The notes under the pieces were generated by a model. It had not been told where the DNA came from. It saw nothing but the letters and a program-made list of their open reading frames with translations, and ran no database searches. Positions 3,199-8,245 of a DNA stretch of 22,112 bases are shown here, one piece after another. The stretch is from positions 1 to 22,112 of the IMG/VR virus record IMGVR_UViG_3300025849_000256; one strand, given 5' to 3'. Source of the stretch: a virus. The translations under genes and the position numbers were made by a program. Each line of letters opens with the position of its first letter. The stretch's first letter is position 1.

Positions 3199-3210
3199 TG
3201 AGTTTTACAC

Positions 3211-3645
3211 ATGGCATACAAAGGAAGATATTCTCCCGTTAATCCAGGAAAATATCAAGGTAACCCAACAAATATTATCTATCGCTCTTTGTGGGAAAGA
3301 AAGATGATGAAGTGGTGTGATTTAAATCCAGATGTAGTAAAGTGGGGAAGTGAAGAAACTGTTATACCTTATGTATCTCCATTAGATAAAAAAATTCATC
3401 GATATTTTGTTGATTTCTATGTGCAAGTTAAAACTAAAGATGGTCAACTAAAATCCTTTCTTGTAGAAGTAAAACCGAAAAAATATACAAAACCACCAGA
3501 CAAAGCACCAAAAAAGAAGACTAGAGCATGGTTTGGTGAAGTTAAAGCGTGGGGCATAAATTCTGCTAAATGGAAGGCGGCAAGTGAATATTGCAAAGAC
3601 CGTAAGTGGGAATTCATAATTTTAACAGAAGACCATTTAAACTAG
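3211..3645 (+). CDS. 4: head completion protein gp4 (TnsA-like nuclease fold)
   Basis: 144 residues, near T4 gp4 (150). T4 gp4 (also called 50 or 65) is needed to finish the DNA-filled head before tail joining, and belongs to a TnsA-like endonuclease superfamily. The sequence shows the expected pattern: NIIYRSLWERK with E29, the strand HRYFVDFY with D68, and FLVEVKPK with E86 and K88. Together these make a complete PD-(D/E)xK active site. A later INSAKWKAASEYC segment is also typical of gp4. The gene is first in the plus-strand late unit. The upstream GAG is a weak ribosome-binding site. The pairing with baseplate genes is like T4, where genes 4 and 53 are neighbours. Confidence 0.87.
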   Translation: MAYKGRYSPVNPGKYQGNPTNIIYRSLWERKMMKWCDLNPDVVKWGSEETVIPYVSPLDKKIHRYFVDFYVQVKTKDGQLKSFLVEVKPKKYTKPPDKAPKKKTRAWFGEVKAWGINSAKWKAASEYCKDRKWEFIILTEDHLN

Positions 3646-3658: not shown

Positions 3659-4249
3659 ATGGCAGAAGAGATGGGTATCTTAGAACAAGTTAGAATTGCG
3701 AGAGGTGATGCTTCTCGCTCCGTACAGTGGTATCAAGACCAAGTACGAGAAGTTGTGGGTACTGCATATACAGGCGCACAGTTTCAAAGAGAGTATGCAG
3801 AAAATCTTACAAACAGAATGTTACCTGGACGCATGTACTTGATACACTATGCAAATCCAGTGACTAGAGACAAGTTACCATACTTTGACAAATTTCCACT
3901 AATACTTCCGTTTAACATTGAAAGTAATTTAGTGACAGCAATAAATTTTCATTATCTGCATCCTGTTCAGAGAATTATTCTTTTAGAAAAATTAAGTCGC
4001 TTCAAAGTTGGTGACAGAGATATTTCTACAAGAATTCGCGCAGACTGGGATATATTAAAAAACTTTTCTAGGTTTAGAGAAGTTAAACCTGCAGTAAAGA
4101 AGTATAGAAAAAGTCTAATTAAAGGGAGACTTCTTTTTATTAAACCGGATGACTGGACAACTGCCGCTATGTTACCAACTGAACAATTCAGAGGTAGCAG
4201 TAAACAGAAAGTTTGGTTAGATAGCAACAGAAAAATGAGGCAGAGATAA
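3659..4249 (+). CDS. conserved T4-like phage protein of unknown function
   Basis: 196 residues. I cannot assign a function. A central signature, PGRMYLIHYANPVTRDKLPYF followed by DKFPLILPFNIE and NFHYLHPVQRIILL (residues about 55-110), has the look of a family I associate with tail and head-completion genes of T4-like phages, but I cannot name it with certainty. The C-terminal part is basic (KKYRKSLIKGR and a lysine/arginine-rich tail). It lies between genes 4 and 54 and shares one base with gene 54 (TAATG), so a virion or assembly role is likely. No ribosome-binding site precedes the ATG, and a NATAAATA box ends 5 bases before it. Neck, wedge or DNA-end protection roles are all possible. Confidence 0.75.
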   Translation: MAEEMGILEQVRIARGDASRSVQWYQDQVREVVGTAYTGAQFQREYAENLTNRMLPGRMYLIHYANPVTRDKLPYFDKFPLILPFNIESNLVTAINFHYLHPVQRIILLEKLSRFKVGDRDISTRIRADWDILKNFSRFREVKPAVKKYRKSLIKGRLLFIKPDDWTTAAMLPTEQFRGSSKQKVWLDSNRKMRQR

Positions 4250-5085
4250 TGTCAATATCAGAATTTTTAGCAAACGCAAAAACAAGAGACTTTGCAAGAG
4301 CAAGTAAGTATCTTGTTATCATCGATATGCCGAGAGGTCCTTCAGCAAATCAAAATGGATTAACAAATCCTTTCGCATCACTATTCAGAACTGGTGGTAG
4401 AGGTGCAAATGATGCTTTTGGTGGTCTTATCAATAACTTTGTGAAAGCAGATGGACAATATCTAGCATCGTTATTCTGTGAAGCAACAGCATTACCATCT
4501 TTAAACGTAGACACTAAATTACAAAAAGTTTATGGTCCAGGAAGAGAAATACCATATGGTCGCAGTTACACTCCCGTAGGTATGAATTTTTATATTGATG
4601 CAAGTTATCAAATTAAAGACTTCTTTGAGATTTGGCAAGGGATGATTTTTGATGAGGATTCATCTCATATGAATTACTATAATGAGTACACAACTAATGT
4701 TCATATCTTAGCACTAGATAATAGAGAAGGTCGTTTCGGTACGTTTGGAATATTACCTGATATCGGAACAATTCAAAACAGTATTATCGTATCTCGCTAT
4801 CAATGTACATTACAAGAATGTTATCCCAAAGTTGTAGCAGAAGTACCATTGGGCGCAGGTAACAATGCGGTTCCAACATTACAAGTTCAGTTTCAATATA
4901 GAAAATGGACAAACACAAGCACATTGATGGGAGTTGGTAACGTAACATCAACATCACATCCAGATAGCAGTGTGTACTATAATCCAACAAATGGGGTTGT
5001 TGGCGGACAACCAGACAGAACCATTTATTCAAGTAACAATGGGACAGCACCAGGACAATATGACAGTTCTAACAGTCCCTTCTAA
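4249..5085 (+). CDS. 54: baseplate tail-tube initiator gp54-like
   Basis: 278 residues against 320 in T4. The start MSISEFLANAKTRDFARASKY parallels T4 gp54 (MYSLEEFNNQAINADFQRNN), and the tube-domain core SYTPVGMNFYIDASYQIKDFFEIWQ parallels T4 LVISFRMDSEACNYRAMQDWV. LQVQFQYRKWT near residue 220 is the closing beta strand typical of tube-fold proteins. gp54 works with gp48 to start tube polymerisation. The C-terminus (after residue 235) is Asn/Ser/Gly-rich and probably disordered. A tail-tube protein (gp19-like) is the main alternative because the folds are related; the N-terminal match and the baseplate neighbours favour gp54. Confidence 0.75.
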   Translation: MSISEFLANAKTRDFARASKYLVIIDMPRGPSANQNGLTNPFASLFRTGGRGANDAFGGLINNFVKADGQYLASLFCEATALPSLNVDTKLQKVYGPGREIPYGRSYTPVGMNFYIDASYQIKDFFEIWQGMIFDEDSSHMNYYNEYTTNVHILALDNREGRFGTFGILPDIGTIQNSIIVSRYQCTLQECYPKVVAEVPLGAGNNAVPTLQVQFQYRKWTNTSTLMGVGNVTSTSHPDSSVYYNPTNGVVGGQPDRTIYSSNNGTAPGQYDSSNSPF

Positions 5086-5114: not shown

Positions 5115-5819
5115 ATGGCACTACCAAGAATTGACACTCCAACCTATGATTTGATTTTAGCATCATCAGGTGAGACAATTAAATACAGACCGTTCTTAGT
5201 TAAAGAACAAAAAATTCTTTTGCTGGCGGCAGAAGATGGTAAACCAGAGGCCGTTGTTAATGGCATTTCGCAGATTATTGAAAACTGCACATTTGGTAAA
5301 GTAAACGCAAGAGACTTACCTATCTTTGATATTGAAAATATCTTCTTGCGTCTACGAGAAAAGTCTGTAGGTGAGATAACAGAGTTCAGCGTTGCATGTA
5401 CTGATGATGAATGTAAGGGAACAACAAAGACAGGTGTAGATTTGAGGGATATTAAGTTATCAGATGCCGTTGCAGAAAAGAATATTAAAATAACAGACAA
5501 TATTACTGTTAACATGAAATATCCAACTTTGATAAATCTAACACAACTAAATGACCTAAATAATATAGATGATAATTTTAAGTTCTTAGCAAATTGTATC
5601 GAAACAATTGAACATGATGGTAACATCATCGATGCAAAGACAACTTCAAAAGAAGAGTTGCAAGAATTTATTGAGAATATGACACAGGCACAGTTTGATA
5701 AGATTAAGGCATTCTTTACAACAATGCCTAGAATGGTAGGAAAACTAGAGTATGATTGTTCTGTTTGCGGAACACACTGCGAAAGAGAATTAAGTGGGTT
5801 GCAGAATTTTTTAGCATAG
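5115..5819 (+). CDS. 26: baseplate hub subunit gp26
   Basis: 234 residues (T4 gp26: 208). Family pattern: a short N-terminal strand, then KYRPFLVKEQKILLLAAEDG at residues 24-43, typical of T4-type base plate protein gp26, then an acidic helical region. Two cysteine pairs, C95-x4-C100 and C215-x2-C218 (with C222 nearby), could make a zinc ribbon joining the middle and the C-terminus. GAGGAG lies 9 bases before the ATG. The last codons contain a U UUU UUA slippery heptamer in frame. A -1 slip would bypass the TAG and add 60 residues, so this gene may make both a 234- and a 293-residue product. In T4, gp26 is a minor hub component needed for hub assembly. Confidence 0.82.
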   Translation: MALPRIDTPTYDLILASSGETIKYRPFLVKEQKILLLAAEDGKPEAVVNGISQIIENCTFGKVNARDLPIFDIENIFLRLREKSVGEITEFSVACTDDECKGTTKTGVDLRDIKLSDAVAEKNIKITDNITVNMKYPTLINLTQLNDLNNIDDNFKFLANCIETIEHDGNIIDAKTTSKEELQEFIENMTQAQFDKIKAFFTTMPRMVGKLEYDCSVCGTHCERELSGLQNFLA

Positions 5820-5834
5820 GCCTCTCTCACGAGG
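5807..5834 (+). other. predicted -1 programmed frameshift signal (slippery site plus hairpin)
   Basis: TTTTTTA at 5807-5813 is read in frame as T TTT TTA, followed by GCA and then the TAG stop. After 7 bases, CCTC (5821-5824) can pair with GAGG (5831-5834) across a 6-base loop. The spacing suits a stimulatory hairpin, although the stem is short. The -1 frame continues without a stop to 5995. Confidence 0.6.
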
Positions 5835-5995
5835 ATTTGTTTAATTTAATGAAAACAAATTTTGCGCTAATGCAACATCACAAATATTCTCTAACCGAGT
5901 TAGAAAATATGATGCCGTGGGAGAGGGAAGTCTATGTAACTCTTCTAGTGCAGTATTTGGAAGAAGAAAAAGAGAAACAAAGACAGAGAGGGTAA
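5813..5995 (+). CDS. gp26 frameshift extension / small hub-assembly protein (gp51-like position)
   Basis: The frame is open from inside gene 26 to the TAA at 5993. The conserved-looking part runs SIGLSHEDLFNLMKTNFAL, then QHHKYSLTELENM, then MPWEREVYVTLLVQYLEEE, and ends in charged residues. Helical content and a central S-L-T-E-L/MPWERE pattern resemble tail-assembly chaperone extensions. The conserved sequence begins directly at the slip point, before the first ATG (5849). That ATG has only a distant GAGGA, 13 bases away. Translation as a C-terminal extension of gp26 is therefore more likely than independent initiation. In T4 the gene after 26 is 51, a hub-assembly catalyst, but I see no clear sequence match to the longer T4 gp51. 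Confidence 0.65.
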   Translation, partial: SIGLSHEDLFNLMKTNFALMQHHKYSLTELENMMPWEREVYVTLLVQYLEEEKEKQRQRG

Positions 5996-5996
5996 A

Positions 5997-6326
5997 ATGG
6001 GAGAAGATATCAAAGAAGCAGGTTTCCATCCAGCAGACACTAATGGGGATGGTATTGTAACTTCTGATGAACGGAAGATGTATCTTGAGTTCAAACGTAA
6101 AGAACTTGAAGATGCAGACGCGAGAAGAGATGCAATGAGATATATGACATGGTTCGCTTTGTTGGGTATATTCAACTATCCAGGGGCGATTTTGATTACA
6201 GCAATGTTAGGTTATGATACAGCGGCGAATATTATCGGAGATATTGCTCCGACTTACTTCGTTGCCACTTCAGCAATTGTTGCCGCCTACTTTGGTGCAA
6301 ATGCTTATGCAGATAAAAAGAAGTAA
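5997..6326 (+). CDS. EF-hand protein with two membrane segments
   Basis: 109 residues. Residues 14-25, DTNGDGIVTSDE, make a canonical 12-residue EF-hand loop: D14, N16, D18, G19, I20/V21, T22 and E25 in the ligand and hydrophobic positions. A charged helix follows (KMYLEFKRKELEDADARRDA). Two hydrophobic stretches come next, about 50-71 (MTWFALLGIFNYPGAILITAM) and 85-102. The C-terminus is lysine-rich. The gene starts one base after the preceding stop, inside the late tail operon, just before the tape-measure candidate. A membrane-active virion component or a holin-like protein would fit the topology, but I cannot assign a function. A single EF-hand would probably need to dimerise to bind calcium tightly. 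Confidence 0.8.
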   Translation: MGEDIKEAGFHPADTNGDGIVTSDERKMYLEFKRKELEDADARRDAMRYMTWFALLGIFNYPGAILITAMLGYDTAANIIGDIAPTYFVATSAIVAAYFGANAYADKKK

Positions 6327-6337
6327 GGAATAATTAA

Positions 6338-8245
6338 ATGGCAGATATAGCATCACTAGCAGACGCAATTGAAAGTCTAAAGATTGAAGTTCAATCTACA
6401 GGCGGACAGCAAATAGCATTCTTAGACAGTATCGCTTTAGATATGTCTGGGATGCTTGACAACTCTAATACAATGGTTGAAGAGTTGCGTTTGTTGCGTG
6501 AAGCATTGGCGCCAGATAATGCGTTTGAACGTGCAGGACAAACTGAACGTGAACGTGAAGCAGGTCTATCTGGACAGAATGTAACACCAGACCAACAAGC
6601 AATCAAACCAATGGGTAAAGGTATATCGGGCAAAGGAATGCTTATGGGTGCCGCGCTTGTTGGTGGCGTTGCCGCATTACTTGCAACATTCGCAGGATTG
6701 CTTGACTTTGATGCAGATAAACTAGTAGGAAAAATAAAAACATTAATGTCACTCAAAGATGAAGTAGCAGATGGTAGTCTATTAAAACTTCTTGCTGAAG
6801 GTGGTGTGCTTATTGCAGTTCTTGGTGGTATAGGTCTCGCTCTTGGAGCATTCGGTATTGGTGCCGCTGTTGCTGGTGGTGGTATGGCACTTGCAGATTG
6901 GTCGGGCGGAAGCGACTGGTCACAAGCAATCGTAGACCACGTTGTAACTCTACTTTCTATTAAGGACCAACTCGGTGGAAACATGAAAATGCTACTGGAT
7001 GGTGGAGCATTTATGTTGACCATGACAGGTATTGGTTTAGGTCTTGCCGCATTTGGTGCTGGTGCATTTGTTGGTGGAGGTGCATTGGCATTCGCAGATT
7101 GGATAGGTGGGGATAAGTCCTGGTCCGAAGCAATTAAAAATCACGTTGTTACGTTACTGTCTATCAAAGATGAACTAGGCGGTAATATGAAGATGTTAAT
7201 GGATGGTGGAGCATTTATGCTAACGATGGCAGGCGTTGGATTAGGTCTTGCCGCGTTTGGTGCTGGAGCGTTTGTTGGTGGTGCTGCATTAAAACTTACT
7301 GATTGGGTAGGTGGTGATGATTGGTCACAAGCAATCAAAGACCATGTAATAACTCTATTATCAATTAAAGATGAGTTGGGTGGTAACTTAGACATGCTTG
7401 CCGATGGTGGTGCATTCATGTTGACCATGGCAGGTATTGGTTTAGGTCTTGCCGCATTTGGTATAGGCAGTGCAACAGCAGGTCTTGGGGAATCAGTTGC
7501 AAAGTTTTCTATGGGTAGTGATTGGACCCAAACAATAAAAGATAATGTTATAAAACTCGTATCAGTAACAGACGAAGTATCTGTAGAAAAGGCACAGCAA
7601 TTCAGTAATGCAATGGGACTTGTCTCTGCAGGACTGTTAAAGTTCTCTGGTGGTAATTTCGGATCAGCATTCTTAGAAGCAGGAGCAAACATTCTAAACT
7701 TCTTATCTGGAGGTAAAAGTCCTATTGAGCAGATGATGGATGTTGGAAACAATGCAGACAACTTGAATAAAGGCGCAGATGCACTAGACAGAATACAAAT
7801 TGCATTAGGTAAACTAGGTGGTCTGAAATTCAGTGGTTCTAAATTAGGCATCACAGAAATGGCAGAAGACTTATTGAATGCTATACCTGCAATTGAAACT
7901 GCTATCAATGGTGGTACTGTTGGTGAAGGATGGATATCATCCGGAACAAAGATTAAAGGTCTCGCATCTGGCGATATTAAGTTTGAAGATGCCGCAACTA
8001 ATATTAAGTTGTTAAGGGAATCTCTTGGATTAACGGCAGAGGTTCAACCAGCACCTATCACTCCTCAAGTAAATGATAGAACATCACAGATGGGCGCACA
8101 AAATAGTGGTGGTAATACTACGATAGCGGCGCCTACAATAGCACCTACTCAAGTTAACAACTCTAGTAGTAACTCTACAGCATTCGCTGGACGCAACGAG
8201 CATCGTAAGAGAGACTTTGATGATTTGATGTTTGCTGGTGCTTAA
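6338..8245 (+). CDS. large repeat-containing tail protein, tape-measure candidate
   Basis: 635 residues. The N-terminus (1-75) is helical and probably coiled coil. From about residue 131 a unit of 67-68 residues repeats: a W-S-x-A-I-K-D-H-V start, then TLLSIKDELGGNMKML, DGGAFMLTMAGIGLGLAAFG, a glycine/alanine stretch and DW. The tryptophans that end the units fall at 194, 262, 329 and 396, and a diverged fifth unit follows. The C-terminal third is less repetitive, and residues 555-610 are Asn/Ser/Pro/Thr-rich. Length, helicity, hydrophobic Gly/Ala segments and position after the hub genes suit a tape measure (T4 gp29 has 590 residues), but I see no direct gp29 match. It could instead be another membrane-interacting internal tail protein. 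It ends convergent with the next gene, the stop codons overlapping. Confidence 0.7.
   Translation: MADIASLADAIESLKIEVQSTGGQQIAFLDSIALDMSGMLDNSNTMVEELRLLREALAPDNAFERAGQTEREREAGLSGQNVTPDQQAIKPMGKGISGKGMLMGAALVGGVAALLATFAGLLDFDADKLVGKIKTLMSLKDEVADGSLLKLLAEGGVLIAVLGGIGLALGAFGIGAAVAGGGMALADWSGGSDWSQAIVDHVVTLLSIKDQLGGNMKMLLDGGAFMLTMTGIGLGLAAFGAGAFVGGGALAFADWIGGDKSWSEAIKNHVVTLLSIKDELGGNMKMLMDGGAFMLTMAGVGLGLAAFGAGAFVGGAALKLTDWVGGDDWSQAIKDHVITLLSIKDELGGNLDMLADGGAFMLTMAGIGLGLAAFGIGSATAGLGESVAKFSMGSDWTQTIKDNVIKLVSVTDEVSVEKAQQFSNAMGLVSAGLLKFSGGNFGSAFLEAGANILNFLSGGKSPIEQMMDVGNNADNLNKGADALDRIQIALGKLGGLKFSGSKLGITEMAEDLLNAIPAIETAINGGTVGEGWISSGTKIKGLASGDIKFEDAATNIKLLRESLGLTAEVQPAPITPQVNDRTSQMGAQNSGGNTTIAAPTIAPTQVNNSSSNSTAFAGRNEHRKRDFDDLMFAGA
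6728..7525 (+). repeat. in-frame tandem repeat, about 201-204 bp units
   Basis: Four units encode residues 131-194, 195-262, 263-329 and 330-396, with a diverged fifth starting at 7526. Spacing between equivalent tryptophan codons is 68, 67 and 67. The second to fourth units are the most alike (for example GGAFMLTM, then GLGLAAFG). Third-position differences between units show that the copies are not recent identical duplications. Confidence 0.85.

Follow-up and report, generated by a model that had tools for sequence, protein, structure and literature searches.

Frameshifting in the genes of tail assembly chaperones (TACs) is reportedly conserved in several groups of T4-like phages, and T4 itself is said to use the genes 26 and 51. 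As the study of Vladimirov, Gautam & Davidson (2022, Virology 566:9-15) is summarised in later papers, some T4-like phages have one gene for the short TAC and another, fused one for the long TAC (PRFect, PMC10885494), and polyT frameshift signals lie in the TAC-N genes of T4-like phages (PMC12846349). Tail assembly chaperone frameshifts are also described for lambda (gpG/gpGT) and P2 (E/E+E'; Xu, Hendrix & Duda 2004, cited in PMC9024508). The T4 proteins gp26 and gp51 appear in the literature as chaperones of hub assembly, gp51 being required and absent from the particle (PMC3004832). In cyanophages, gp51 has been reported with about 20% of its usual length, and in Aeh1 it has been reported as missing (Sullivan et al. 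2010, PMC3037559).

The stretch of DNA analysed here (the window, 22,112 bases) carries a gene 26 for which we consider it very likely, with a probability of about 0.93 and judging from sequence, that gp26 and gp26-51 are the short and the long form of a tail assembly chaperone, with the long one made by -1 slippage. Translation of gene 26 would give TAC-N, the short form. From the sequence, its conservation, the homologies and the modelled fold, we infer that a minority of the ribosomes slips back by one base at U UUU UUA, passes the UAG stop, and appends the 60-residue gp51 domain (TAC-C), which would result in a TAC-NC of 293 aa. In analogy to gpG/gpGT of lambda, the mixture of short and long forms may then coat and solubilise the tape measure protein, and TAC-C may recruit tail tube subunits.

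The 3' end of gene 26 and its surroundings

Gene 26 (5115..5819, + strand) encodes 234 aa with about 41% identity to the counterparts of cultured phages, and its product matches Pfam PF12322 (T4_baseplate, E 3.4e-59) and phrog_150 (baseplate hub, E 8.3e-63). The gene ends with GGG TTG CAG AAT TTT TTA GCA TAG, in which T TTT TTA (5807..5813, + strand) lies in the X XXY YYZ register two codons ahead of the stop (TAG, 5817..5819, + strand), exactly as had been claimed in an earlier note on this DNA. Equally, the -1 frame is open as described there: it runs for 62 codons from the slip site and is closed by TAA at 5993-5995, and the part that would be appended (5813..5995, + strand) comprises 60 codons and the stop. 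The predicted fusion on the + strand is thus join(5115..5813,5813..5995). With simultaneous slippage, LQNFL-SIGL is expected as the main junction and LQNFF-SIGL as a minor form, so that the junction LQNFFSIGL of the earlier note may occur but is not the main predicted product. The tryptic junction peptides would be ELSGLQNFLSIGLSHEDLFNLMK (main) or ELSGLQNFFSIGLSHEDLFNLMK, and the unshifted C-terminus is expected to be ELSGLQNFLA.

The genes around the site are T4-type tail genes; those for a baseplate wedge protein, a tail-tube-cap protein and one more tail protein lie on the opposite strand. Directly upstream of gene 26 is the tail tube protein gene (4249..5085, + strand; phrog_45, E 7.4e-27; PF23849). 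Gene 26 and the -1 frame are followed by one small ORF (5997..6326, + strand) for a probable membrane protein that is 58% identical to the ORF which Pelagibacter phage HTVC008M has at this position, and then by an ORF at 6338..8245 (+ strand). The latter encodes 635 aa, in which a unit of about 68 residues, rich in Gly, Ala and Leu, recurs nearly unchanged; it has no family match, and BLASTP found no significant match to the tape measure protein of HTVC008M. As HTVC008M has a 'putative tail tape measure' in the matching place, position and the repetitive hydrophobic sequence make 6338-8245 a probable tape measure gene.

The window is AT-rich, and with 23 in-frame X XXY YYZ sites among the 6,585 codons of its likely genes such sites are frequent; the heptamer by itself therefore proves nothing. 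One such site, T TTA AAC at 3636-3642, lies in frame one codon ahead of the stop of the ORF 3211-3645; the -1 frame closes there within a few codons, and the site is thus probably due to chance. What is above chance in gene 26 is the conservation of the heptamer, not its mere presence.

Conservation on both sides of the proposed slip site

Conservation of the heptamer across T4-like relatives had been proposed as a check in the earlier note. Relatives of gp26 were gathered from viral contigs with four queries and from isolate records, and removal of duplicates left 124 distinct loci. In 120 of these, gene 26 has an in-frame T TTT TTN within its last three codons, compared to 14 such sites among the 27,498 other codon positions of these genes, and its last codon is mostly TTC or TTA, in some relatives TTT. 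The four loci without heptamer are T4, Vibrio phage K476, Salmonella phage SFP10 (Kuttervirus), and a locus (L093) whose gene 26 frame is broken early. The 124 loci share ancestry and their counts are not independent trials, which is why the spread over clusters is the safer statement: with one representative per 60% identity cluster, 29 of 29 have the heptamer.

It could be argued that T TTT TTN is kept merely because the protein has to end on Phe-Phe or Phe-Leu, without any frameshifting, as GLQSFF/GLxNFL is indeed a conserved protein motif and AT-rich genomes favour TTT. The codon choice at the heptamer shows that the motif alone is not sufficient. The first Phe codon is TTT in 120/120 loci, whereas Phe elsewhere is encoded by TTT in 70% and TTC in 30% of the cases; the codon ahead of it ends with T in 120/120 (about 63% expected), although six kinds of codons are used there (AGT, TCT, AAT, GAT, GCT and ACT); and when the second residue is Leu, its codon is always TTA, with six Leu codons in use elsewhere. 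In T4, where the shift is dispensable, the same two Phe residues are spelled TTC TTT. As, in addition, only the -1 reading frame is conserved past the heptamer, a mere motif effect has a negligible probability. No relative was seen that combines non-slippery codons with an intact -1 domain lacking an own start.

Every one of the 120 loci with the heptamer has an open -1 extension, with a length of 60-71 residues. After the slip, the window and its relatives differ mostly in the third positions of -1 codons, and 31-43 of 48 residues are kept (43 in L003); when the same bases are read in the other frames, far fewer residues are kept, and ahead of the slip the 0 frame is the conserved one. This pattern of changes indicates that both frames, each on its side of the slip, are under purifying selection. 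That a fused ORF was split by a one-base indel, through decay of the gene or through an error in sequencing or assembly, would be conceivable in view of the fused gp26-51-like ORF known from T4 (gp51), but an identical frame offset at an identical place in 120 distinct loci, finished isolate genomes included, together with the selection on both frames, is incompatible with this, and the comparative data have already refuted it.

A more serious objection is that gp51 might be a separate short protein that is made by re-initiation or translational coupling near the beginning of the -1 frame, and GenBank has it so for several cyanophages. In the records of S-SM1, S-PM2 and P-SSM2, gp51 starts with an ATG just past the gp26 stop, an in-frame ATG is present near the junction in 52 of the 120 relatives, and Vibrio phage K476 apparently has a true separate gp51 start at TAATGATG. 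However, 45 of the 120 loci have no ATG, GTG or TTG near the junction at all, a start codon with a Shine-Dalgarno (SD)-like 4-mer is found there in only 8 (an ATG with such a 4-mer in just 7), and the annotated gp51 starts vary in place and drop conserved residues (45 aa remain in HTVC008M as well as in S-H25). Re-initiation also leaves unexplained why the heptamer and the wobble T in front of it are invariant, and why gp51 is fused in T4. We therefore regard a separate start as improbable. In the window itself, TTG at 5756, TTG at 5837 and ATG at 5849 were considered as starts for the -1 frame and rejected, as they have no well-placed SD sequence and are not conserved; the ATG at 5849, which lies inside the -1 frame, is absent from L003. 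The earlier note had stated that the conserved-looking -1-frame sequence begins at the slip point and not at an ATG, and no start codon is conserved among the 120 loci. Relatives with an own start and no heptamer, which it had named as the case against a fusion, were encountered only in the far relative K476 and in T4, the latter with a separate fused gene, and not among the other loci. With a conserved heptamer, a conserved -1-frame protein and no conserved start codon, the proposed -1 frameshift fusion is well supported.

Candidate stimulatory elements

Downstream of the heptamer, CCTC (5822-5825) and GAGG (5831-5834) are present as noted earlier, but the hairpin that they could form (5822..5834, + strand) is weak and not above chance in the window phage. 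A 64-nt fold gave z = -0.96 relative to dinucleotide shuffles, of which 30/200 were equal or better, and synonymous-codon shuffles gave p ~0.14-0.22 for L001 and L002, which are identical or nearly identical loci. In the window clade (L001-L003) the mean z was -0.36, the hairpin thus not being stronger than the coding sequence predicts. As a stimulator in this phage, the hairpin was therefore dropped.

In the relatives, folding of the first 42 bases past the heptamer is more stable than that of synonymous shuffles (mean z -1.16 +/- 0.26 over the 29 clusters, 7/29 with z < -2), and in the next stretches this effect is smaller or absent (-0.45 and then 0.06). The P-SSM2 group, L025/L057, the L151 type and L046/L069 have strong stems. 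Lineage-specific strong hairpins 5-8 bases past the heptamer, with sequences that differ by clade, were observed in L088, L134-L180, L025, L057 and L151-L179.

Upstream, the Glu codon that precedes a conserved Gly about 9 bases (4 codons) before the heptamer is GAG in 62 of 91 cases, versus 14 of 76 in other Glu-Gly pairs, and in these relatives it creates an SD-like GAGGG, comparable to the SD-like upstream stimulator of E. coli dnaX. P-SSM2 has such a GAGGG in addition to its hairpin. Counted by cluster, this bias is weaker (about 11 GAG versus 10 GAA) and may thus be lineage-bound. The window has AGTGGG at the usual place and no SD-like GAGG. A tentative picture, to which we would give slightly below even odds, is that the heptamer is fixed in T4-like marine phages and the stimulators turn over, being an upstream GAGGG at a distance of about 9 bases, a downstream hairpin at about 6 bases, or both, and that the window lineage, in which neither is detectable, would rely on the heptamer and some further aid.

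A probable chaperone pair and its known counterparts

The -1 peptide matches phrog_634 (E 5.8e-28), the family of T4 gp51 with the annotation baseplate hub assembly catalyst, as well as the C-terminal end of phrog_150, while no Pfam model matched the 62-residue peptide. A profile built from -1 peptides without those of T4, Aeh1 and phiW-14 matches residues 200-245 of T4 gp51 as well as -1 frames downstream of gene 26 in Aeh1 (E 6e-11) and phiW-14. These profile matches identify the -1 domain as the C-terminal domain of T4 gp51. The earlier note had imagined a chaperone-style frameshift attached to a baseplate hub protein, and in this point it has to be corrected: as the -1 domain corresponds to the C-terminus of T4 gp51, the locus very probably encodes the TAC pair of T4-like phages and no chaperone trick newly attached to a hub protein.

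This is supported by the fold. The AF2 model of gp26 (pLDDT 87) was matched by VIA structural re-alignment over residues 1-85 to the HK97 tail assembly chaperone (2OB9, Z 7.8), and the other top PDB matches of the N-terminal domain were RBSTP2171 (3FGX, Z 7.7) and YqbN (3KLU, Z 7.0). These three TAC-type matches cover 83-85 residues; the next one is 5IR0 with Z 4.9, and all remaining ones are below 3. Foldseek alone gave no significant match of the model in the PDB, and no PDB sequence relatives of gp26 were found. With Z values below 8, the match is supportive and not conclusive for a tail assembly chaperone fold of the N-terminal domain (residues 1-94 as modelled). What gp26 would have in common with the HK97 chaperone, YqbN and RBSTP2171 is the fold of the N-terminal ~90 residues, and gp26 is longer by ~140 residues, among them a Cys-containing ribbon.

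T4 has the two parts in another arrangement. T4 gp26, the homolog of the window TAC-N, matches only phrog_150 (14-235), whereas T4 gp51 spans phrog_150 (13-280) and phrog_634, and as the TAC-C profile finds its C-terminus, gp51 of T4 is the fused long form; the fusion joins at the same Phe point (VFKLL). Unlike in the window, this long form is a separate gene of 249 aa on the opposite strand, and there is no heptamer. The best explanation is that T4, with gp26 as short form and gp51 as separate fused long gene, does the same job without frameshifting. The genetic data on T4 (PMC3004832) agree with this chaperone reading.

In Vibrio phage K476 (L086), the ORF in the position of gp51 (3223-3405) starts with an ATG of its own that overlaps the stop of gp26 (TAATGATG), and the heptamer is lacking, which is possibly a third arrangement. 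In Aeh1 (L084, ~3208-3387), T TTT TTC stands at the end of gene 26, and the -1 frame after it contains a gp51 domain that had been left out of the annotation. In S-CAM8 (L189), S-BM3 (L191) and similar cyanophage records, the gp51 part is unannotated or has a truncated ATG start, and none of the inspected isolate records joins the two frames. The short cyanophage gp51 and the missing gp51 of Aeh1 both follow from the frameshift. A 'baseplate hub' gene and an orphan mini-ORF would thereby become a single recoded chaperone pair, whose frameshift appears to be the rule among marine T4-like phages, and this suggests that in the annotation of T4-like genomes the two frames are better joined.

The chaperone pairs of lambda and P2 are similar to that predicted for the window in having a -1 shift, a minor C-terminally extended form, and adjoining tail genes. 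The slip site of P2, T TTT TTG, resembles that of the window, whereas lambda slips on the different G GGA AAG, and we know of no sequence homology between gp26 and the chaperones of either phage. Much closer are the T4-like TACs of Vladimirov et al. (2022): as far as these are described in the papers that refer to them, they share with the window the gp26-type TAC-N, the polyT site at its 3' end and the gp51-type C-terminal domain, and there is no essential difference. With polyT sites in T4-like TAC genes already in the literature, the mechanism is a known one, and the locus of the window, a marine relative, is a further case of it.
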